Assembly (NCBI GenBank): GCA_016935315.1
Contig: JAFGRD010000095.1
Span: forward strand, 1 to 64,000
Reading direction: 5' to 3'
DNA length: 64,000 bases
Origin: Pirellulales bacterium
GTDB taxonomy: Bacteria; Planctomycetota; Planctomycetia; Pirellulales; Thermoguttaceae
Positions 43,434 to 55,490 of this stretch are shown here, piece after piece. Both the position numbers and the translations under genes were made by a program. The notes beneath the pieces were generated by a model. The model worked only from the letters and a program-made list of their open reading frames with translations, had not been told where the DNA came from and ran no database searches. Positions within the stretch are counted from its first letter, which is position 1. Each line of letters opens with the position of its first letter.

Positions 43434-44495
43434 GTGTTCAGGCGACGCGATTTCCTGAAATGGAGCGGGGCAACGCTCGGCGCCTCGTTCGCCTCCGGAC
43501 CGGCGAAGGCGGCCCACTCGGCCCCGCCGGCCAAGGCGCGTCGCGACCGCCGCCCGACCGGTCTGGTCTTTTCGGCCGAGTATAAACAGCACCTTACCGG
43601 GCGCGGGCATCCCGAGTCGCCCAAACGGCTGGACGCCATCATCAAGGCCCTGACGCCCCAGCGTCTGGGTTTCGAGCTGCTCCGGCTGGAGCCTCGCCGC
43701 GCGACCCGAGAAGAAATCCTCTTCTGCCACACGGGCCACTATTTCGATCTGGCCAAACACGACATCGAGTCGGGGGCGGGACATCTATCCACGGGCGACA
43801 CGGCGGTCTCGCGCAAGTCGTTCGATTGTGCCCTGTTGGCCGCGGGCGGCGCATTGACGGCGATCGACGCCGTTATGGCGGGCCGCGCCAACGGCGTGTT
43901 CTGCGCCGTGCGCCCGCCCGGCCATCACGCCAGGCCCGCCCAAGGTATGGGGTTCTGCGTGTTCAACAATGCCGCGATTGCCGCGCGCTACGCCCAGCGA
44001 AGACACCAGATCGGCAAGGTGCTGATTGCCGATTGGGACGTTCACCACGGCAATGGCACGCAGGACGTTTTCTACGAGGACGGCTCGGTCTTCTATTTCA
44101 GCACGCACCAATGGCCGCTTTACCCCGGCACGGGCCGCCCCAGCGACACCGGGCGAGGCGCAGGAGCCGGAACCACGCTGAATTGCCCGTTTCCGGCTGG
44201 CTCGGGCCGCAAAGAAATCGTCGGCGCCTTCCACGACAGGCTCGCGCCCGCAGCCGATCGATTCCGGCCCGAGCTGGTGATCGTCTCGGCCGGCTTTGAT
44301 TCGCGGATCGGCGACCCGCTGGGACGATTCCAACTGACGGATGACGATTTCGCCGAGTTGACCGAAATCGTCAAGCAGATTGCCCGGCGTCACGCGCAGG
44401 GTCGGCTCATCTCCGTGTTGGAGGGCGGCTATGGACTCGAAGGCCTGGCCACAGCCACTGCCGCGCACCTAGAGGCGATGTCGTCTTCGCCTTAG
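43434..44495 (+). CDS. Exported histone-deacetylase-fold amidohydrolase
   Basis: A 353-aa protein. The N-terminus carries a twin-arginine motif (RRRDFLKWSGATLGASFASG), so the enzyme is probably exported by Tat. The mature domain is the arginase/HDAC fold with the full catalytic set: RPPGHHARP (two active-site His near 163-164), zinc ligands in DWDVHHGNGT, a third zinc Asp in SAGFDSRIGDP, and the substrate loop EGGYGLEGL. Family members remove acetyl groups from polyamines, lysine or other amines; the substrate of an exported form is unknown. The start is GTG 43434 after AAGGG. The 3' end overlaps the PEP-CTERM gene on the other strand by 27 bp. Confidence 0.88.
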   Translation: MFRRRDFLKWSGATLGASFASGPAKAAHSAPPAKARRDRRPTGLVFSAEYKQHLTGRGHPESPKRLDAIIKALTPQRLGFELLRLEPRRATREEILFCHTGHYFDLAKHDIESGAGHLSTGDTAVSRKSFDCALLAAGGALTAIDAVMAGRANGVFCAVRPPGHHARPAQGMGFCVFNNAAIAARYAQRRHQIGKVLIADWDVHHGNGTQDVFYEDGSVFYFSTHQWPLYPGTGRPSDTGRGAGAGTTLNCPFPAGSGRKEIVGAFHDRLAPAADRFRPELVIVSAGFDSRIGDPLGRFQLTDDDFAELTEIVKQIARRHAQGRLISVLEGGYGLEGLATATAAHLEAMSSSP

Positions 44496-45158
44496 CAGGA
44501 TCGGCACGCCTGCCAGCAACCCCAGGAGCATCGTGGCGGTGGCGGGCTCGGGGACCCCGATCAACAACTCGCCCTCGATGATGGTCAATGGAATCGGCGG
44601 CGCCTGCTGGGGGAGATCTTCGAGCAACTCGGTCGTATCGGCAATCGTATTGCCCAGGCACAGCGACCAGGGACCGTCGCCTTGGAAGAAGCCCGTCGTG
44701 TCGAAGGTGATCGTGCCCAACAGGCCGTCGGGCATGACGTTCCCTGCGTCTTCGTCGGCGATGGTGCTCACCTCCGCGATCTGCGACAAGATCGGTCCTC
44801 CGACATTGCCCAAGTTGTCGATCTGGCCGAAGAGTCTTACCGGCCCGCCGACTCCCCCAACGGGCTCGGACGAAGAGATGTCGACTGCGGTGATGGCCGG
44901 ACCGTCGATTCCTTCGCCGACGGCGGGAGCGCCGGGAAATGGCAAGCCCTCGGCCTCCGGCCCCCCATTGGCCACTTGCACGCGAAAATTCAGACCTGCC
45001 ACCGGCGGGTCTCCCGGCTCGGCGGTCACCCAGATCTCAACGAGTTGTCCGGCCGTATCCGGCAGAAGATGGTGAGATCCTACCTCAATTGTGGCCGCCA
45101 GACTCGGAGTTGCGGCCAAGAGAAGCACCAGCAAAACGCCCAGAACCGCCTTGTTCAT
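44469..45158 (-). CDS. PEP-CTERM protein A
   Basis: A 229-aa exported protein with a Sec signal (GVLLVLLLAATPSLA) and a C-terminal PEP-CTERM anchor: VPEPATATMLLGLLAGVPIL followed by RRRRHRL, which directs exosortase/archaeosortase-type processing. The mature part begins ATIEVGSHHLLPDTAGQ and is beta-rich, faintly like cohesin/Ig folds. ATG 45158 follows GGGGTGGCGAC. Promoter TTGACA-N17-TAGTTT at 45214-45242. A close paralogue lies just upstream (45528-46202). No exosortase gene is in the window. Confidence 0.85.
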   Translation of the reverse strand: MNKAVLGVLLVLLLAATPSLAATIEVGSHHLLPDTAGQLVEIWVTAEPGDPPVAGLNFRVQVANGGPEAEGLPFPGAPAVGEGIDGPAITAVDISSSEPVGGVGGPVRLFGQIDNLGNVGGPILSQIAEVSTIADEDAGNVMPDGLLGTITFDTTGFFQGDGPWSLCLGNTIADTTELLEDLPQQAPPIPLTIIEGELLIGVPEPATATMLLGLLAGVPILLRRRRHRL

Positions 45159-45213
45159 GTCGCCACCCCTATGCAATCAAGCAGGGAAGAACCCTATACC
45201 CACTACGTTCTGC

Positions 45214-45527: not shown

Positions 45528-46202
45528 CTACTTCCGCTTCCTCCACGCGAAGGGAACCGCAGCCAGCAGACCCAACAGCATCACGATCGTTGCCGGCTCG
45601 GGAACGATCACGATCGATCCGTCGGCGACGGTCAGCGGAATGGGCAGGGCCTCGGGGGTGTCCTCATTGAGAACGGTGGCGCCGTTGAGGGTTTGGCTGA
45701 GGATCAGGTCCCAGGGGCCATCGTCCACGGTGAAGCCAGTCGTGTCGAGGGTGATCGTGCACAACAGGCCGTTCGCCACGAAGCCGGGCGCCGGAACACC
45801 CGGCGACGACTCGCCTAAGGTAGTTCCAACCGATGCAACTTGCGGGACAATAGCGCCGGGACCGACATTGCCCGTGTTCGGGTGCTGCGAGAAGACTCTT
45901 TCCGGATTGCCGGGCAGGTCGGAGACTCCACCAGACGAGACGACATCGACGGCGACAATCCTCGGTCCCGCCGTTGTTCCACCCGCCGCCGGTCCGCCGT
46001 CTCCCACTTGGATCTCGATGACCGCTCCAGCAATTGGGGGATCGCCGTCTTCGGCCTCGACCCAAATGCCGATCACCTGGCTGTCGGCTCCAACCGCAGT
46101 GCCGGGGAGAAGTTCGTGCGTGCCTACGGAGATCGTCGCCGCCAGCGCCGGGGACACGGCCAACAACAGAACCATCAGACCGCCAATTGCTACCCTATTC
46201 AT
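45528..46202 (-). CDS. PEP-CTERM protein B
   Basis: A 224-aa paralogue of protein A with the same parts: signal peptide (GGLMVLLLAVSPALA), mature start ATISVGTHELLPGTAVG, and anchor VPEPATIVMLLGLLAAVPFA plus WRKRK. Conserved internal blocks include GLLCTITLDTTGF versus GLLGTITFDTTGF. ATG 46202 follows GAGGTGGCGAC, the same ribosome site as gene A. Two promoters of the type TTGAC(A/G)-N17-TAGNNT lie upstream (46257-46285 and 46343-46371), and a strong terminator follows. The gene is a self-contained transcription unit. Confidence 0.85.
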   Translation of the reverse strand: MNRVAIGGLMVLLLAVSPALAATISVGTHELLPGTAVGADSQVIGIWVEAEDGDPPIAGAVIEIQVGDGGPAAGGTTAGPRIVAVDVVSSGGVSDLPGNPERVFSQHPNTGNVGPGAIVPQVASVGTTLGESSPGVPAPGFVANGLLCTITLDTTGFTVDDGPWDLILSQTLNGATVLNEDTPEALPIPLTVADGSIVIVPEPATIVMLLGLLAAVPFAWRKRK

Positions 46203-46607: not shown

Positions 46608-49600
46608 TCAGCCCGGCCGATCGTCGTCGGAAAGAAATCCACAAATTGCCGCGTCGACCCCGCTCTGCGCCCTGATTCTGGCCCCCGCAGGGCGGCCGCC
46701 GGGAAGATCCCGGTCCCAAACGTAGATCCAAGCCCCCGAAGCCACCCCCGCCTGCGAGCCCACAAGCCCCTCTGACGTGCCGTTTTGCCGACTGCCTTCT
46801 TGCCCTTTATCGCCCCGGTCCTGGCCGGGCGTGTCCAAACGGAGCGCCACAGCGCCCGGCTCGGTCTCAGCCGCCGACGGCGACGACCTTGAAAGGTCGA
46901 TCAGTTGCAGGGCCGTCAAGAAGTTCGTCTGGCTGTTTCGGGCAAGGAGCATGTCGGAGGCATTGACGCGGGCGTCCCGATTGAAGTCGTAGGGCATGTC
47001 GATCCGTGCCGGATCCAGAAACGTCCGCGGATTGTTGCGGGCCAACAGCATGTCGACGGCGTTGACCTTCGCATCCGAGGTCGAGTTGCCCGCCTCGCCG
47101 ATGGCATTGCCGAAATAGAAAACGTCGTCTTGGGCCAGGCGTGTGTTTTCGGTGGCAAACACGGTGACCTCGAGCCACTGTCCGGCAATGGCGTGATCGT
47201 TCCAGAGAATCGTCACCCGGTCGGAGCCGCCTTCGCCCGCACCCGGTCGGACGGTGATGCTCTGCGGCGTCTCCGCCGCGTTCCAGCCGTCGGGGTCGGC
47301 GTCGTTGCCCACGCGAAAGCGGAAGTCGTCGACCGAGAGCGAGGCCACGGGACCACCGATATCGACCATGATCCCGTTGATGCCGCGTTGGAAGCTGGTG
47401 TAGTTGGCAAACGTGGCCGTCTGGCCCGGCAGCAGCGCCTGCTTATCCGAGGCGATCGCGTCGTCGTCCCGGGCGTTGGGCGCCGGATCGTTGCCGTCGA
47501 AGGCCGAGTGGTTGTAGAAGACGTGGTGGCCGACCACGTTGAGGTCGACCGGGGCGCGGACATCGAACGTGTCGCTCCGGCAGACGTGGCCACTGCCGTC
47601 GTCCACGCGGAGGTAGACGTCGGTGGCTTCGCGGAAGACCGTGACGGGGCCGCTCCAGACGCCGCCCACGAACGCGGGCGTCATGAAGGGCATGGCCTCG
47701 ACCGCCACGGCGTCGCCGAGGAACGGGACCGTCAGGCCGGCGTTGACGATTCCCAGGCTGGGATTGTCGCAGACCCAGTCGCCGGCGCCGTCGGTATCGG
47801 AGTCGCCGATCCGCTGATACGAGTACGAGTAGCTCGGTTGCCGGGGCACCTGGCTGCCCTGCCAGTGCTGGGGAACCACCGGGACCGGATCGGTCACGAT
47901 GGCCGGGTCCAATCCCGAGGCGGCCATGAAATCGACCACTTGCCCGTCGGCGTCCAGCAGCAGCACTCCCGTGGCCGAGGTGGTGGTCCAGACGATGTTG
48001 GCACCCGAGTAAAAGCTCGGATAGGAGCCCGGCGGCAGCCCCCGTTCGTTGATCGTGAACACGTCGCCGGCCGAGCAGATCGTCGTCTCGGGGACCGTGA
48101 AGACGTGAATCACCTCCATGGCCGCATGGTGATAGATCAGGACTTGCCAGCCGGAGATATCCAGGTTGGTTCCGGAGACGTTGGTGAACTCGACGGCGTC
48201 GGACAGGGTGTTGACCTCGGAGACGACGACCGTCGAGCCGGTGCCCGTGCCGATCCAGCCGGTGAGGTTCACGCGGTCGATGAAATCGGTCACCACGTAG
48301 CCATGGGCGTCTTGCGCGGTCAACGTCAGAGCAAACGGAAGGCCGACGTACTGCGGCGAGTCGAACGGGCTGATGGCAAAGCAGTCCAGCGGGCCGGCAA
48401 CCAGGTCGAACGGGTCGCTGATGCCGACGTGGCCCCAGCCGTCGCCCGCGGTCAGCTCGACGTCGGCGCCGGTCGCGTGGACGGTCACCTCGCCGGTCCA
48501 GACGCCGGCGGCGAACGCGCCCGTGGTCGCCGGCTCGACGGGCAGCCCGCCGTGGGAATTCGCGCCAAGGTCGACCGTGCCGACGTAGACGAGAATCTCC
48601 TCGCCGCCCACGTCGCGTGCCCGGATCGTCACGGGAAACGGCTCGCTGGCCAATTGCCGTGTGCCGACCGGATCGAACGTGAAGTGGTGGACGTCGTCGT
48701 CGGCGACGCGCATCGTATCGTCGCCGTTTAGAAAACCGTCCGCGGCGGCCGTTATCGTCACCGTCCGGGCGCCGTCGCACGCGGCGTCGTCCACCACGGT
48801 GACGTCGAAGGTTGCCGACATGGCGCCCGCCGGAATCGTCACCGTTTCCGGCACGTTTACCTCCGCGACGTTGTCCGAAACAAGTGACACGACCAGGTCC
48901 GCCGGCAGGGTCCCGGAGATGTGCAGTGTGGCGGCGTCGGTCAACCGGCCGTCGCCTTCCCACGCGAGTGCGGGCAGCGTGACCAGAAGATCGCGGCTCT
49001 CGTTGTCCCCGACGACGATGGAACCGGCCCCGTCGGTCCAGTTCTCCACGCGGGCCACGATTGCGACGCCTTGCGGGCCGTCGATCCGCGTGTCGTCGAG
49101 CACCGTAATGTCGAACGACGCCGAGGTCCGGCCGGCGAGAATGGTGACGCTCGGCGGCACGATCGCCTCGGTCGGATCGGCGGAAGACATTGCGACGACC
49201 ACGCTGCAGGTGGGCGCTCGATCCACGGTTACGGTGCCGCAGCCGGCCAGCAGCCCGTCGCCTTCTGCGGCTTCGGCCGGCAGAGCGACCGTAAGCGTTG
49301 CCGTCTCGTTGTCGTGCACGGCGATGACACCGGGCCGGCCGCCGTATCCCGGCGCGGACGCCGAGATGGCGACCGGTCGTATCCAGTCCAGCTCGGCGTC
49401 GTCGACAATCGTGAGCTCGAAGGGGACCTCGGTCTGGCCCGCGAGGATGACGGTCGTGGCCGGCACGGTCGCCTCGGTGGAGTCGTCGCTGCGGAGGCTT
49501 ATCGTCAGGTCGGTCGCCAGGGCAAAGGGAATCGTCACCGAGCCGTAGACGGCGCCGTCGCCCTCGGTGGCGTCGCCCGGCACGGTCACCGTCAACGGGA

Positions 49601-52600
49601 TCACCGACTCGACGTCGAACACCGTGCTGGCGCCCGGATGACCGGCATGATCGTCGGCCTGGAGGTGCATCGCGGTGGTCGCCTCGAAGATCGCGACTTC
49701 GCCGACCCAGATGCCCTGGTCGAAGGCCGCCGTGACCGCGGGAGAGACGCCTACGGGCACGCCCGGTTCCGCGCCGGCCCATCCGCTCAGCCAGACGGTT
49801 CCGCCGAAATCGCCGACCGCATGGCCGTGGGCGTCCAGGGCGGTCAGCGTGATTGCGAAGGGAAGACCGACGTACTGCGGCGACGCGATCGGGCCAAAAC
49901 CGAAATGGTCCAGCGGCCCGGCCAGGACGTCGAAGGTGTTGCTGGTGCCCACGTGGCCCGAGCCGTCGTCGACCACCAGCACCACGTCGTCGTGTACGGC
50001 GTCCACGGAAACCGGGCCGAACCATGCGCCCTGGACAAACGCCGTGGTAGTCGCGGGACTGACGGGCAACGGCGTTGCCCCGTCGACAAACGGCAGCGTC
50101 AGTCCTGGATTGACGATTCCCAACGTCGGATTGCGGGCGGTCCAGTCGTCGGCCGTGTCGTGGTCTTCGATGCCGATCCGCTGATACGAAACGGCATCGC
50201 TGGCCAGCGCCGGCACCTGTCCGCCTTGCCAGTGGTCGGGCACAATGTTCAGCGGATCGGAAATCTGTGCCGGATTCAGCGCCGCGGCGGCCATGAAATC
50301 GACCACACGACCAGCCGCGTCCAGCAGCAAGACGCCCGCCGACTCATCCTCCCGCCAACTGATCTCATCGCCCGTATAAAAGCTCGGATACGTGCCCGGG
50401 GCAACGCCCTTCTGGCACACCAGGAAGACATCGCCCGCCGGGCACATCGTGTCGGCGGGGATCGCAAAGACCGACAGCGGCGAAGTCTGTGAGGCGCGGT
50501 CGTAGAGGACCACCTGCCACTGGGACAGATCGATCGCGACGCCGGAGACGTTGGTGAACTCGACCCTGTCGGGCGAGCTCACGCTGACCTCGGAGATCAC
50601 GATGGTCGAGGTCGTATTGCCGCCGCCGCGGGCAAGCAGATTGACCGTCTCGCCGAACACGCGGATCGTCTCCTCGTCGACGTCCTTGGCCTCGATGGCC
50701 ACGCCGAAGGGCATACTCGCCGTTTGAGGCGTACTGACCGGGAGAATCGAGAAGTGGTGGACGTCGTTGTCACCCACGGTGATCGTGTCGTCGCCGTCAC
50801 GGAAACCCGCGGCGTGGGCGGTCACGGCGGCAGTTTGCCGGCCGTCGTAATCCACATCGTCGACGACGTACAGATCAAACGCGGCCCAGGTCTGGCCGGC
50901 GGGAATGGTCGCCGACGCCGGCACGTCCAATTGGGCCGGGGCGTCGCTACCGAGCGACACCACAAGATCGGTCGGCAGCGTGCCGGAGATCCGGACCATG
51001 CCGGCACCCGAGAGGACCCCGTCGCCCTCCCAGGCGGCGGCCGGAAGCGTGACGAACAGATCGTTGTCATCGTCGATCACGTCGATGGAATCGGAGCCGT
51101 CGGTCCAGTTCTCCACGCGAGCCGTGACCGTCGCCGTTTGCGCGCCGTCGATCTCGGCGTCGTCCAGCACGGTCACGTCGAAGGTGGCGGAGTTCCGGCC
51201 GGCGAGAATCGTCACCGTTGCCGGAACGGTCGCCTCGGTCAGATCGTCGCAGGAGAGCTCGACCACCACGTCGCAGGTCGGGGCGTCGTGTGCCGTCACT
51301 CTGCCCTGGCCGACCAGCACGCCGGCGCCTTCCGCCGCCGAGGACGGCAAATCCACGGTCAACGAGGTCGTTTCGTTGTCGTGGACCGACAGCGGCAGAT
51401 ACCGGCTGGCATAATCGGCGGCCGACGCGGAGATTACGACCTGCCGGATCCAGTCCAACTCTCCATCGTCGATCACGGTGATCTCGAAATCGGCCGTGGT
51501 CCGACCGGCCGGGATCGTTACCGTGTCTGGAACCGTCAATTCGCTGGGATCGTCGCTCTGGAAACTCACCGACAGATCGCTCGCCAAGGCCTCGGGAATG
51601 CTCACGCTTGCCGGCACCGCACCGCCGCCTTCGGCCACGTCGGTCGGCAGGTTTACCGTCAGCGGTGGCAGCACGACCACCTCGAGGCAAAACTCCTTGG
51701 TGACCGCGTGGGCCGGCGATGCCGAATCCATCGCCCGAACGGCGAAGTCGAAGCTTCCGATCTCGGTCGGCGAGCCGGTGACGATGCCCGTGGAACGGTC
51801 GATCGAGAGCCCCTCGGGCATGGCCCCGCCGCCGACAAAGGGCACGACGAGGCCCGTGTTTTGCCCGCCTTTGCTGGGCGGATCGACCCAAGTGAAATCG
51901 GCGGCCGTGTTGCGGTCGGCGCTGCCTTGGCGCTGGATCGTGCCGAGGCCGCGCGAGACGACGCCGTCGCCGGAAAACGCATCGCCGACGAGGATCTGTT
52001 GGCCGTTGATCTCAAGGTCCATCGCGGCGAGGTTCGTCTGCATCCAGTGCCAGGCCAGGAAATCGACGAGATTACCGTTGTTGTCGATCAGGGCGGCCCA
52101 GCCGGCGTTGCCCGCGTTCCAGAGGATGTTGCCGCCGAAGGGGTTGTCGTCGCTGCGATCGGTCCGATAGAGCACCTGCCCCCCTTCGATGGACGTGGGC
52201 AATTGCCAGAGCGCGGCGTTGACGGCGTTGATGTCGGTGTAGTCGTCGCTGACGGCCAGGACCCAGCCTTCCGTGTCGACGCTCTGTCCGGAGGTGTTCT
52301 GGATCTCGACGTAGTCGGGACCGCCGAGACCGCACTCGGTGATCACCACCGGAAGCGCGGGCGACCATTCGTAGGGCGGCACACCGCCTTGGGCGTGCAG
52401 TGTGAACCGATAAGGCTCCTGAAACGCCGCCTGGGGCAGTACGGTCAACGACGTGATCGTCAGCGGTGCAAACGTGAACGTTTCGGTGTGACCGGGGTTC
52501 GGGTTGCCGGCGCGGTCCCAGACGGCCCCGGCGACGAACTCGACCGTCACCTGGCCCGGCGCCAGGGCGCCCGTGTAGTAATAGCGCCACACGCCGCCGC

Positions 52601-55490
52601 CATGGTCGACCGGTGGCTCGTTGAACGTCAGACCGGCCACGGCCAAGTCGCCGGCGTCGAGCGTTGCGACGTCCACGCCCGCCTGGCCGACGTCCGTGAA
52701 GAGAATGTCCAGATATCCCAGGTCGTCGTGAATCTCGCTGTCGGCGGCCGGCACATGAAGCCGGCCACCGGGACCTTCGACGTCGTAGGTGAACCGCAGG
52801 GTCTGTCCGGCGTTCCAGTCGCCCAGATCATCGCGGACCTGGTCGGCATGGACGACGACCTCGATGACTCCCGGCGTCAGAGTCCCGCTGTAGGGATACC
52901 TCCAGACGTTGCCACCCTGGTGTGTTGGGGTTTGGACCGTTACCCCGGCGATGGAAACGTCGCCGGCATCGATCGTGGACGTATCGAGCCCGGCGGCAAA
53001 GAAATCGAGCCACTCGACGTCGAGGTAGCCCGGGTCGGCGTCGATCGCACTGCCGGCAGCCGGCCACACCAACTCGCCGAACGGTCCTCGGGTAACGCCG
53101 TTGATCGTGCCCTCGTACGGCGCCGCGTTGCAGGCCGTCACCACGATCCGATAGAGGCCGATGGATCCCGGCGCCATCGCGGCGAAGGTGGCGCGGCCCA
53201 CGGCGTCGGTCGTGCCGACCCAGTAATCGTCGGTGCCGGGCAGGGAGATGCAGACGCGCGCCCCGGCCACGGCGGTACCCGCCGTGGTTACCGTGACGGT
53301 CAGGTCGGTGGGCGCGTCGAGCTGGATCGCGCGCGGATGATCGACCGAGAGCACGGCGGGCGTTTCGGTCCGCAGCATCATCTCGGGGTCGCCGAACCAG
53401 AGGTATTCGTTGAATTCCAGTTGGGAATAGGGATTGGCTCCCCCATGGACAAGCATGTAGTACTTGGCGAAGCTGAGGGCTTCGGCCGGCCGCATCGACC
53501 GCGGATAGGCCGCGTCGGTACACGTCGGGTCGTAGTCCGGCCAGAAGGACGTATACAGGCCGTGGACCAGCAGGTCGTTGAAGCCGGAGTAGCTGGTGTT
53601 GGTGGCCGCCAGCACGCCCACGGCGCCGCCGTTGGGGTGCTTGAGCAGGGCCTCGGCGAAGCTGTCTCCGCCGTAGTAGTCGAAGGTTCCGGTCGAGCAG
53701 TTGATGCTGAGGACCACCGGAGTCTTTACCCCATTAGAAAGGTCGTTCACGTCGGCATTGCGGAAGGGTGGATCACCCCATCCCGTCTCGCTACCGTGGT
53801 CCCGGTGCTGCACGAGGCCTACCCCGGCGTTGATCGCCGCGCTCACGTCGCCCCGGGCCTGTTCGGCGCTCGTCCAGAGGGCCACCACTTCCGGCGGAAC
53901 GGGGTAGGGCGGTGCGCCGGAGACCGAGAGGCGATGCGGGTAGTCGGCGGTTCGGTAGTAGTAGGGCGGCCCGCCGCCTTCGTCCGCGCAAAGGGCCGTG
54001 TGCACGGTCATGCCCCGCTCGTCGCGGAGATAGTCGCCGACGTGCATCGACGTCTCCATGAACCAGCGATCGGCGTAGCCGTCGGGCCCCGGGTCGTCCT
54101 GGTCCTGGAAAAAGCCGGCCACCAGCACATCGTCGTACCAATCGCCCATGTCGGGCGTGCGGTCGTAGGTCAGGATCTTGTCGATGACGTCGGCGGCCTG
54201 GGCCTCGGTGTTGACCGGCAACCGGCCCAAGGTCAGGTCGGGCAGGTAGTCGCCGCCCTCGATGCACGCATAGGGGTGGTCCGAGATGTAATAGCCGGAG
54301 ACGTAGTTGCTCGGCACGTCGTCGTAATCGCCCACCAGCAGCACGTACGATGTCTTCGTGCCGGTTTCGTAGACGTCGCGAATGAAGCTGCGCACCGAAC
54401 TCGTGCTGCTGCCGATGTCCGATAGCTGCGCCACATGCGTGCGAATACCCTTAAGCTGCTTCCACTCCGCCAGGCGCAGCACGTCATCGTAGAACTCGTC
54501 GGCCGTGATGATCAGGTAGTCGGCCTCGGCCGCTTCGTCGGATACGACGGGTCCCGACTTGCCGCCGTCGTCCGAGGCCGGCGGCGACGACTCGACCCCA
54601 TCGACGGAACGCGGTGTCGGCCCAACGCCAACATACGCGACGGAGAACTCCAGCTCCACGGCCACCGCAATCTCGCCCGTTCCGGGATCGTATTGGAAGG
54701 GGGAGACTTCGAGCAGAACCACTCCGTTGTCTCGGGCGATGGCCGGCTCGCCGACCTTCAGCAATTCCCGCGGCGACGCCGTGGTCCCCGCGTAGTAGTC
54801 CTCGTTGTAGGCGAATTCCGCAGTCCCGGTGGTTGCGGCAGCGCTGGCACCGATTGTGGCACTCGCGCCGAGGTCCGACGTGTCGGCATCCGTGGCATAG
54901 GGGTACGCCGTGTCGGGCAGCGGCGGCTGTGCCGGATAGATAAGGCGCGTTGTGCCGAGCCTCGCCGCGTTCTCGATCGCACACTCGGCGGTGACCTCCA
55001 TGCCGGCGGGGACAATCAGCGAGGTGCGAAACACGGGCAGCTCGGGCTCGCCGGGACGACCGCCTGAACTCCAGCCGGGGACCGACAAACGGGCGAACTG
55101 CGTGCCTGCGGCCGAAACGGCATGAAACTCGACGCCCGGCAGCCAGACACGGCCGCGGATGCCCTGATCCGTGTACTCGAGCGAGAACGTGGGCGGCGTC
55201 AAGGCGGCCGGAGGCGCCGCAGGAGCAGCGCCCGGCAAGAACTCGACCCACAGCCTGGACGACTCGTCGTTGAACCACGCCACGGGATCGTCGGCAAGCC
55301 ACTGCGGCCACGGTGGATCGAGGGCGCAGGAACCGAGACTCAAGAGCGTCCGCAGCTCCAATGGCTCGCAGCGCAACGATCTTCGGCCGTGCGGCCCGGC
55401 GGCAAAACGCGAGGATGGAGACGCCCACCTGCGGTGGGAACAGCCCAGGATCGAGGCAAGCTTGCCTACGGCCTCGAAAAACCTCCCCAT
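46608..55490 (-). CDS. Giant exoprotein with gingipain-type C25 protease, Calx-beta, Ig and lamin-tail modules
   Basis: A 2960-aa protein. Order: LEPR-XLL-type motif (CEPLELRTLL, ~40); C25 protease about 315-645 with catalytic H565 (QHRDHGSE) and C598 (SINCSTG), 33 residues apart as in RgpB; a carboxypeptidase-regulatory-like domain; two bacterial Ig-like domains; a He_PIG-type domain split by a lamin-tail-like module (~1047-1220); two blocks each of three Calx-beta units and two Ig-like units, each block with one further lamin-tail-like insertion (~1625-1807, ~2417-2595); then a dockerin-like module (~2653-2873) and a tail with AWIYVWDRDLPGGRPAG. ATG 55490 has GGAGG 8 nt upstream. Promoter at 55763-55791; the leader may be structured. 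Likely a secreted or surface cysteine protease. Confidence 0.87.
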   Translation of the reverse strand: MGRFFEAVGKLASILGCSHRRWASPSSRFAAGPHGRRSLRCEPLELRTLLSLGSCALDPPWPQWLADDPVAWFNDESSRLWVEFLPGAAPAAPPAALTPPTFSLEYTDQGIRGRVWLPGVEFHAVSAAGTQFARLSVPGWSSGGRPGEPELPVFRTSLIVPAGMEVTAECAIENAARLGTTRLIYPAQPPLPDTAYPYATDADTSDLGASATIGASAAATTGTAEFAYNEDYYAGTTASPRELLKVGEPAIARDNGVVLLEVSPFQYDPGTGEIAVAVELEFSVAYVGVGPTPRSVDGVESSPPASDDGGKSGPVVSDEAAEADYLIITADEFYDDVLRLAEWKQLKGIRTHVAQLSDIGSSTSSVRSFIRDVYETGTKTSYVLLVGDYDDVPSNYVSGYYISDHPYACIEGGDYLPDLTLGRLPVNTEAQAADVIDKILTYDRTPDMGDWYDDVLVAGFFQDQDDPGPDGYADRWFMETSMHVGDYLRDERGMTVHTALCADEGGGPPYYYRTADYPHRLSVSGAPPYPVPPEVVALWTSAEQARGDVSAAINAGVGLVQHRDHGSETGWGDPPFRNADVNDLSNGVKTPVVLSINCSTGTFDYYGGDSFAEALLKHPNGGAVGVLAATNTSYSGFNDLLVHGLYTSFWPDYDPTCTDAAYPRSMRPAEALSFAKYYMLVHGGANPYSQLEFNEYLWFGDPEMMLRTETPAVLSVDHPRAIQLDAPTDLTVTVTTAGTAVAGARVCISLPGTDDYWVGTTDAVGRATFAAMAPGSIGLYRIVVTACNAAPYEGTINGVTRGPFGELVWPAAGSAIDADPGYLDVEWLDFFAAGLDTSTIDAGDVSIAGVTVQTPTHQGGNVWRYPYSGTLTPGVIEVVVHADQVRDDLGDWNAGQTLRFTYDVEGPGGRLHVPAADSEIHDDLGYLDILFTDVGQAGVDVATLDAGDLAVAGLTFNEPPVDHGGGVWRYYYTGALAPGQVTVEFVAGAVWDRAGNPNPGHTETFTFAPLTITSLTVLPQAAFQEPYRFTLHAQGGVPPYEWSPALPVVITECGLGGPDYVEIQNTSGQSVDTEGWVLAVSDDYTDINAVNAALWQLPTSIEGGQVLYRTDRSDDNPFGGNILWNAGNAGWAALIDNNGNLVDFLAWHWMQTNLAAMDLEINGQQILVGDAFSGDGVVSRGLGTIQRQGSADRNTAADFTWVDPPSKGGQNTGLVVPFVGGGAMPEGLSIDRSTGIVTGSPTEIGSFDFAVRAMDSASPAHAVTKEFCLEVVVLPPLTVNLPTDVAEGGGAVPASVSIPEALASDLSVSFQSDDPSELTVPDTVTIPAGRTTADFEITVIDDGELDWIRQVVISASAADYASRYLPLSVHDNETTSLTVDLPSSAAEGAGVLVGQGRVTAHDAPTCDVVVELSCDDLTEATVPATVTILAGRNSATFDVTVLDDAEIDGAQTATVTARVENWTDGSDSIDVIDDDNDLFVTLPAAAWEGDGVLSGAGMVRISGTLPTDLVVSLGSDAPAQLDVPASATIPAGQTWAAFDLYVVDDVDYDGRQTAAVTAHAAGFRDGDDTITVGDNDVHHFSILPVSTPQTASMPFGVAIEAKDVDEETIRVFGETVNLLARGGGNTTSTIVISEVSVSSPDRVEFTNVSGVAIDLSQWQVVLYDRASQTSPLSVFAIPADTMCPAGDVFLVCQKGVAPGTYPSFYTGDEISWREDESAGVLLLDAAGRVVDFMAAAALNPAQISDPLNIVPDHWQGGQVPALASDAVSYQRIGIEDHDTADDWTARNPTLGIVNPGLTLPFVDGATPLPVSPATTTAFVQGAWFGPVSVDAVHDDVVLVVDDGSGHVGTSNTFDVLAGPLDHFGFGPIASPQYVGLPFAITLTALDAHGHAVGDFGGTVWLSGWAGAEPGVPVGVSPAVTAAFDQGIWVGEVAIFEATTAMHLQADDHAGHPGASTVFDVESVIPLTVTVPGDATEGDGAVYGSVTIPFALATDLTISLRSDDSTEATVPATTVILAGQTEVPFELTIVDDAELDWIRPVAISASAPGYGGRPGVIAVHDNETATLTVALPAEAAEGDGLLAGCGTVTVDRAPTCSVVVAMSSADPTEAIVPPSVTILAGRTSASFDITVLDDTRIDGPQGVAIVARVENWTDGAGSIVVGDNESRDLLVTLPALAWEGDGRLTDAATLHISGTLPADLVVSLVSDNVAEVNVPETVTIPAGAMSATFDVTVVDDAACDGARTVTITAAADGFLNGDDTMRVADDDVHHFTFDPVGTRQLASEPFPVTIRARDVGGEEILVYVGTVDLGANSHGGLPVEPATTGAFAAGVWTGEVTVHATGADVELTAGDGWGHVGISDPFDLVAGPLDCFAISPFDSPQYVGLPFALTLTAQDAHGYVVTDFIDRVNLTGWIGTGTGSTVVVSEVNTLSDAVEFTNVSGTNLDISGWQVLIYHHAAMEVIHVFTVPETTICSAGDVFTINERGLPPGSYPSFYSGANIVWTTTSATGVLLLDADGQVVDFMAASGLDPAIVTDPVPVVPQHWQGSQVPRQPSYSYSYQRIGDSDTDGAGDWVCDNPSLGIVNAGLTVPFLGDAVAVEAMPFMTPAFVGGVWSGPVTVFREATDVYLRVDDGSGHVCRSDTFDVRAPVDLNVVGHHVFYNHSAFDGNDPAPNARDDDAIASDKQALLPGQTATFANYTSFQRGINGIMVDIGGPVASLSVDDFRFRVGNDADPDGWNAAETPQSITVRPGAGEGGSDRVTILWNDHAIAGQWLEVTVFATENTRLAQDDVFYFGNAIGEAGNSTSDAKVNAVDMLLARNNPRTFLDPARIDMPYDFNRDARVNASDMLLARNSQTNFLTALQLIDLSRSSPSAAETEPGAVALRLDTPGQDRGDKGQEGSRQNGTSEGLVGSQAGVASGAWIYVWDRDLPGGRPAGARIRAQSGVDAAICGFLSDDDRPG
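47560..49603 (-). repeat. Duplicated module block 2 in the C25 protein
   Basis: It encodes three Calx-beta-like units (starting LTVTVPGDATEGDG) and two Ig-like units (DPVGTRQLASEPF and SPFDSPQYVGLPF); the second Ig unit carries a lamin-tail-like insertion (47705-48240). It matches block 1 unit by unit. Confidence 0.8.
49604..51672 (-). repeat. Duplicated module block 1 in the C25 protein
   Basis: It encodes three Calx-beta-like units (starting LTVNLPTDVAEGGG) and two Ig-like units (LPVSTPQTASMPF and GPIASPQYVGLPF); here the first Ig unit carries the lamin-tail-like insertion (50070-50615). Confidence 0.8.
51830..52350 (-). repeat. First copy of the lamin-tail-like module, inside a He_PIG-type domain
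   Basis: The module runs from VITECGLGGPDYVEIQNTSG to NTGLVVPFVGGG. The host domain reads GGVPPYEWSPALP before it and MPEGLSIDRSTGIVTGSPT after it, which join into a normal He_PIG sequence if the module is removed. Confidence 0.75.

Follow-up and report, generated by a model that had tools for sequence, protein, structure and literature searches.

Domain insertion, nesting at several levels and the display of a module from a split domain are already known. In the RTX adhesins AhLap of Aeromonas hydrophila and FrhA of Vibrio cholerae, as the accessible text of two reports describes them, an immunoglobulin-like (Ig-like) host domain is interrupted by a complete domain with its ends side by side, and resumes past this guest, which may itself be split (as is vWFA in AhLap); guests with such adjacent ends emerge from the split Ig-like domains and bind ligands (PMC12077191, PMC10865825). 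Here, we describe a comparable arrangement in a Pirellulales bacterium (assembly GCA_016935315.1). A stretch of 64,000 nucleotides of contig JAFGRD010000095.1 (hereafter, the window) carries a giant gene whose multidomain product, with Propeptide_C25 and Peptidase_C25 domains, holds three lamin-tail domains (LTDs) inside other domains. We know of no settled function for the LTD in bacteria.

A survey of domain insertions in ECOD, in its accessible part, likewise presents the orders A1-B-A2 and A1-B1-C-B2-A2, with six levels in a cyanobacterial RNA polymerase; in the main text, as far as accessible, the words 'lamin', 'Ig-like', 'immunoglobulin' and 'mobile' are absent and one guest moving between hosts in one genome is not treated (PMC13114784). 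In Planctomycetes, a giant gene with a product containing a lamin tail and Ig-like domains was reported (PMC5177795), and LTD, M14 and dockerin parts were proposed to belong to one peptidase complex, the planctosome, with a role of the LTD in anchoring peptidases (PMC6461901); however, the accessible text of these two papers describes no nesting or split host. An LTD was also noted beside nuclease and nucleic-acid-binding domains, according to the accessible part of a further study (PMC8289736). In contrast to the RTX adhesins, the proteins considered here carry Peptidase_C25 or CotH (by Pfam) or, as judged by eye, peptidases of the M36 or S8 type; one and the same loop is empty or holds many kinds of guest, and unrelated hosts share one guest subfamily. 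No RTX repeat family was among the 10 Pfam matches of the giant protein at E values up to 10. In the open-access literature, as far as its text was accessible, we came across no account of LTDs nested in this way or of the exchange of such guests, an absence that is weak evidence.

Results

The giant frame probably starts at an ATG (codon 57, position 55490); residue numbers in the open reading frame (ORF) are those of the protein, P0001, plus 55. Pfam placed LTD (PF00932) on three stretches of the protein (99.6 bits, cut-off 34.3; 40.7, 39.1 and 38.2 bits for the single stretches), all of which close with N(T/P/A)GLxxPF(V/L), in keeping with an initial annotation, made from the letters of the DNA, that had noticed three modules with a common end. 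Protein identity is 56% between copies 2 and 3 and 31% between copies 1 and 2; in the tree, copy 1 belongs to one LTD subfamily, LTD-1, and copies 2 and 3 to another, LTD-2. The lamin-tail fold was recovered for copy 3, as residues 53–160 of the model described below align to the lamin A/C tail (1ifr) with a Z score of 15.1 and a root-mean-square deviation (rmsd) of 2.0 (104 residues aligned, 18% identity), and more weakly for copy 1, in a low-confidence model (3jt0; Z 8.7, rmsd 3.0, 97 residues aligned). The genome from which the window comes (7.1 Mb) has 170 LTD matches, of which 22 are to LTD-1 and four are close to LTD-2; thus, most of its LTDs belong to neither nested subfamily.

Copy 1 lies in a He_PIG domain (PF05345). 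Downstream of this region are two similar blocks, A and B, each formed by repeats that we take to be Calx-beta-like (Pfam gave no such match) and by two Ig-like units, in the order A1, A2 and B1, B2; copy 2 lies in A1 and copy 3 in B2. Apart from the inserts, the four units can be aligned with one another, and copies 2 and 3 occupy the same place, as the initial annotation had proposed; it had also pointed to a sister unit with no insert (B1), to which A2 can now be added. Against a profile of nine empty units, all taken from other proteins, the joined halves of A1 scored 101.9 bits over positions 1–100 and those of B2 68.7 bits over positions 2–98, and the naturally empty B1 and A2 scored 101.1 and 81.9 bits; unjoined, A1 and B2 each gave two separate matches, one on the N side and one on the C side, with a third match, of −0.8 bits, in B2. 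For He_PIG, excision of copy 1 improved the profile match, in line with the initial annotation: the joined flanks scored 43.0 bits (cut-off 24; positions 4–84 of 96) versus 32.8 bits for the whole protein with copy 1 in place, the best stretch of which uses the tail of the LTD as its first part.

An AlphaFold2 model of B2 with its guest was made from six aligned rows. The predicted local distance difference test (pLDDT) was 87–93 in the first four ten-residue blocks and 72–96 in the last six. With the middle skipped, the two ends of the model match residues 122–224 of complement C5 (Z 10.0, rmsd 3.4, 98 residues aligned) and residues 647–752 of Dictyostelium filamin (Z 8.8); these host matches run from model residue 1–4 to 282–284 with about 100 residues aligned. 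The B2 model is thus the one in which the host halves form a single Ig-like fold around the guest. The matches listed for the model of the He_PIG region were lamin-like and other Ig-like ones, all of the guest. Nesting, as opposed to tandem order, is therefore supported for copy 3 by the model, for copy 2 by homology and for copy 1 by profile score, and this part of the initial annotation stands. The Ig-like unit has no Pfam name at E values up to 0.1 (two empty copies searched); a search for sequence relatives among solved structures gave four rows only (best E 0.025). A viral structure library gave no match at E ≤ 0.001.

Across proteins, the acceptor loop of the Ig-like unit is either empty or filled. 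Over 35 units, the gap between the host halves was bimodal, with 15 empty (0–14 residues) and 20 filled units (147–410 residues); the count does not include units at contig ends or with one half only (L094, L170, L147, L148), nor weak or distant matches (L145, L146, L150, L151, L171–L173). One further unit each from a Verrucomicrobiaceae and a Lentisphaerae genome, with guests that resemble TGT (see below) by eye, brings the tally to 37 units, 22 of them filled. The insertion point is roughly constant, with M14 guests and a few others differing at the right edge. By BLASTP (E 1e-3), the 20 guests fall into eight components: LTD (nine), an unnamed domain, 'TGT' (four), M14 (two) and five singletons (two guests, given the label 'flav' on inspection by eye, have no BLASTP link between them). 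We had considered the LTD as the essential feature of the arrangement and rejected this; since the same loop holds eight groups of guests, it is not the LTD that sets the arrangement apart. Above the cut-off, Pfam named M14 with CarboxypepD_reg, and DUF4082; NIDO fell below it for a unit guest (20.5 bits, cut-off 25) and above it for a He_PIG guest (31.5 bits).

The variety of guests can be seen within single proteins. Another C25 protein of the window genome (C46) has six units. The first holds an M14 zinc carboxypeptidase with CarboxypepD_reg, the second an LTD, the fourth a domain that looks Rossmann-like by eye and the sixth a nidogen-like domain, whereas the third and fifth are empty; the protein also carries the He_PIG guest just mentioned, a nidogen-like domain, and here the rejoined He_PIG scored 46.5 bits. 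A protein of genome G015 has, by eye, the same arrangement of a nidogen-like domain in He_PIG, and in genome G035 three unit guests are all different, one of them DUF4082. LTDs are nested in the same Ig-like unit in one Verrucomicrobiaceae and one Lentisphaerae record; the arrangement is therefore old or widely transferred. Counting the window genome each time, the empty-unit profile matched 4 of 392 genomes drawn from the phylum at E ≤ 1e-6. At E ≤ 1e-4, it matched 10 of 119 genomes in the family and 22 of 396 in the order, many of the latter weakly. A distant relative of the unit forms long arrays in L171 (G040:C167) and L172 (G058:C274), where only the first-half model matched and a spacing of about 100 residues suggests that most carry no guest. 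In a related giant protein, L091 (G035:C235), the head looks by eye like a metallopeptidase of the M36 type, and a stretch that resembles a beta-propeller separates blocks of units.

A tree of the host halves resolved two types, u1 and u2 (support 100/99). The 16 u1 units comprise 13 empty ones, two with M14 and one with an LTD; 17 of the 19 u2 units are filled. The sole u1 unit with an LTD is A1 of the window; only two u2 units are empty, and A2 of the window is among them. In turn, the LTD-2 guests form one clade (100/100), with the guest of A1 inside it and its other five members in u2 units; mapped on the host tree, the label LTD-2 needs six changes for six rows, at least three of them from starred branches alone. 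The host halves of A1 are 54% identical to the empty B1 and 44% to the filled B2, and its guest is 56% identical to that of B2. The simplest reading of these sequences is that an LTD-2 guest moved from a u2 host to a u1 host. In a separate case, two sister units (97/94) of one protein, L095 (G014:C26), differ in that one is empty, with a shortened loop, and the other has an LTD-1 guest; this is a candidate for guest loss.

Copy 1 could be followed into other hosts, as the initial annotation had suggested should be done. The LTD-1 model was built from 10 copies, all nested, and we considered 41 distinct copies of at least 80 bits with the start present (copies below 80 bits or lacking the start were left out). 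Forty are nested, one of them visible on one side only, in five kinds of host. Most (31 of 41) are flanked on both sides by the halves of a domain in CotH-carrying proteins, so labelled because CotH was found by Pfam in both of the two such proteins scanned; for a further copy only the second half of that domain was found by profile. Three are in Ig-like units, three in another LTD (one of these cut by a contig end), one in the He_PIG domain of the window and one in an SdrD_B-like domain (joined halves 29.1 bits, just below the cut-off of 29.7); the remaining copy is at a C-terminus, un-nested. One LTD host, when rejoined, scored 47.6 bits as an LTD over positions 7–108 of 109. The host domain of the CotH proteins also occurs empty, has no Pfam name at E values up to 0.1 (one empty copy searched) and has a second loop, which can hold a PA14-like domain (31.6 bits, one tried) or a domain with no Pfam match. 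Moreover, in 8 of the 19 CotH-type hosts of the window genome that carry LTD-1, the LTD-1 is in turn split by another domain, which makes three levels of nesting; the inner domains of the six cases read completely are, by eye, of three kinds, one with a DUF1349 match.

The DNA at the edges of one such guest was compared within the window genome, using identity in 45-base windows. The LTD-1 of L176 (in an LTD host, contig C112) and those of L194 and L196 (in CotH-protein hosts) are mostly 62–89% identical inside the guest and mostly 24–47% outside, the likeness ending at both guest edges; a stretch of 49–66% some way downstream may be a chance alignment. L194 is 57–89% identical to L196 throughout, and 54–87% to L188. 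In 23 of the paralogous LTDs listed for the window genome, the hairpin that matches the insertion site of L176 is unbroken. In the guest tree, the L176 guest falls among the CotH-hosted copies of the genome that carries it (98/96), and in G015 both LTD-hosted copies group with the CotH-hosted ones (97/92), which implies either two insertions at one site or homogenization within each genome. Because orthology of the LTD hosts of two genomes has a support of only 38/90, new insertion and gene conversion are not separable here. The tree of the CotH hosts is mostly without resolved branches. A foreign base composition of the three window guests was considered and rejected, their GC content being 0.642–0.655, and that at third codon positions (GC3) 0.81–0.88, versus 0.668 and 0.844 for the gene.

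Table 1. Features of the giant gene, in the numbering of the window.
Feature	Position	Strand	Basis
Giant open frame, 3016 codons	46608..55658	-	ORF reading
Propeptide_C25	54633..55130	-	Pfam PF08126, 35.7 bits
Peptidase_C25 (gingipain-like peptidase)	53373..54518	-	Pfam PF01364, 228.5 bits
He_PIG host domain, half 1	52350..52457	-	PF05345, 43.0 bits when halves joined
Guest 1 (copy 1), LTD of subfamily LTD-1	51828..52349	-	Pfam, alignment, tree
He_PIG host domain, half 2	51669..51821	-	Pfam; joined-halves score
Block A, repeats labelled Calx-beta-like	50760..51668	-	Sequence; no such Pfam match
Ig-like unit A1 (host type u1), half 1	50622..50759	-	Unit alignment, host tree
Guest 2 (copy 2), LTD of subfamily LTD-2	50076..50609	-	Alignment, tree
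Unit A1, half 2	49917..50069	-	Unit alignment, profile score
Unit A2 (host type u2), empty	49605..49910	-	Unit alignment, profile, host tree
Block B, second set of Calx-beta-like repeats	48693..49601	-	Sequence; tentative label
Unit B1 (host type u1), empty	48393..48689	-	Unit alignment, profile, host tree
Unit B2 (host type u2), half 1	48249..48386	-	Alignment and AlphaFold2 model
Guest 3 (copy 3), LTD of subfamily LTD-2	47715..48236	-	Model residues 53-160 resemble lamin A/C tail 1ifr, Z 15.1
Unit B2, half 2	47553..47702	-	Model ends align jointly to single Ig-like domains
Weak dockerin-like segment near C-terminus	46944..47078	-	PF00404, 15.3 bits, below cut-off of 22.9

An open frame of 1233 codons runs opposite the giant gene (50724–54425, forward strand) and is probably a by-product of the high GC3. 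Just downstream of the giant gene are two similar neighbouring small proteins (44469–45176 and 45528–46202, both on the reverse strand), the tails of which (VPEPAT...) are presumably PEP-CTERM-like.

Discussion

Models and alignments together show nesting, the empty or filled state of one site, the interchangeability of guests and the presence of one guest subfamily in unrelated hosts. We consider it probable that these proteins are scaffolds that display guests from split domains, and that the guest cassettes are copied between hosts by recombination. The protein would string many beta-sandwich domains into a long chain, headed by the C25 peptidase; in some of these domains a loop between strands would carry a complete guest, the host folding from both halves around the neck of the guest. 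A split host may hold its guest sideways off the chain, for binding or cutting, as in the RTX adhesins, and guest cassettes may be copied in frame, or swapped, among hosts through recombination, events that loop ends rich in small residues and guests with neighbouring termini could allow to survive.

Several points weigh against this interpretation. Display of the guests is proposed by analogy with the RTX adhesins, and gene conversion may have homogenized guests at long-filled sites, in place of new insertion. The B2 model has a mean pLDDT of 65.7, with residues 175–228, the tail of the LTD, below 50, and the model of the He_PIG region is too weak to use (mean pLDDT 53.9; about 28–46 per block at the host ends), so that structure prediction of the inserts bore out nesting for copy 3 but did not help for copy 1, and LTD-1 within He_PIG is a single case. 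In the host tree, most inner branches are poorly supported (4 of 32 are starred) and the bootstrap had not settled. By global alignment, the DNA of the A1 and B2 guests is 68% identical, yet pairs of unrelated guests give 60% and 64%; the comparison is therefore uninformative, and the kinship of the two guests rests on protein identity and on the tree. Lastly, the genome of the window and those of its relatives are mostly in many contigs.

In a bolder version, which is possible but which we hold as tentative, cassettes would circulate in frame among unrelated beta-sandwich acceptor loops, nested up to three deep and homogenized in each genome, as an economy of domain cassettes in which exchangeable slots diversify surface proteins.

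The initial annotation had offered two explanations, a loop position that tolerates insertion or a mobile coding module. The first is well supported but too narrow, as the loop of the relatives holds many unrelated guests. Pure tolerance, in which the loops of stable beta-sandwiches accept insertions that persist or disappear by chance and nesting as such serves no function, would fit the small folds of the hosts and the frequency of domain insertion (about 20% of multidomain proteins, according to the accessible part of the ECOD survey; PMC13114784). We think it rather unlikely, since the contrast between 3 of 16 filled units in u1 and 17 of 19 in u2, and the filling of the same site in the Verrucomicrobiaceae and Lentisphaerae records, suggest an arrangement that is kept, although shared descent could also yield both.

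As to the mobile module, an LTD guest with sharp DNA edges does occur in two unrelated hosts of one genome, but no marks of an autonomous element accompany it. Such an element would be an LTD cassette with its own signals, which a transposase-like enzyme, provided in trans, would insert in frame at the loops. That LTD-1 occupies five kinds of host, has 22 matches to copy 1 in the window genome and shows sharp edges in one same-genome case would agree with this; however, repeats at the edges of the three window guests (24-codon stretches per edge, words of 7–9 bases) were near the shuffled expectation, except for one inverted 8-mer at copy 3 (0.18 expected), and neither terminal nor target-site repeats of a transposable element were found there. 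No trace of a transposon was detected at these guests, where no search for an enzyme was made. Furthermore, the same loop is used by unrelated guests, which a signal within the LTD cannot explain, and the other copies in the window genome are only 30–48% identical to copy 1, so that there was no burst of recent copies of it. We thus give an autonomous element little credence. Tandem domains mistaken for nested ones, or an artefact of repeat assembly, which the repetitive protein and a genome in 172 contigs might invite, are highly improbable, as the host halves align as one fold in the B2 model and the same nesting is seen in several other genomes.

The origin of domain nesting is usually inferred from old, fixed cases. 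In the proteins described here, one and the same site occurs empty, filled or with guests that are unrelated to each other, and within a single genome two unrelated hosts contain one guest whose DNA edges are sharp, so that the steps of domain nesting become testable. The acceptor loops are also natural insertion sites for protein engineering, and the arrangement provides a guide to binding or catalytic modules that may be exposed in the poorly annotated giant proteins of bacteria.

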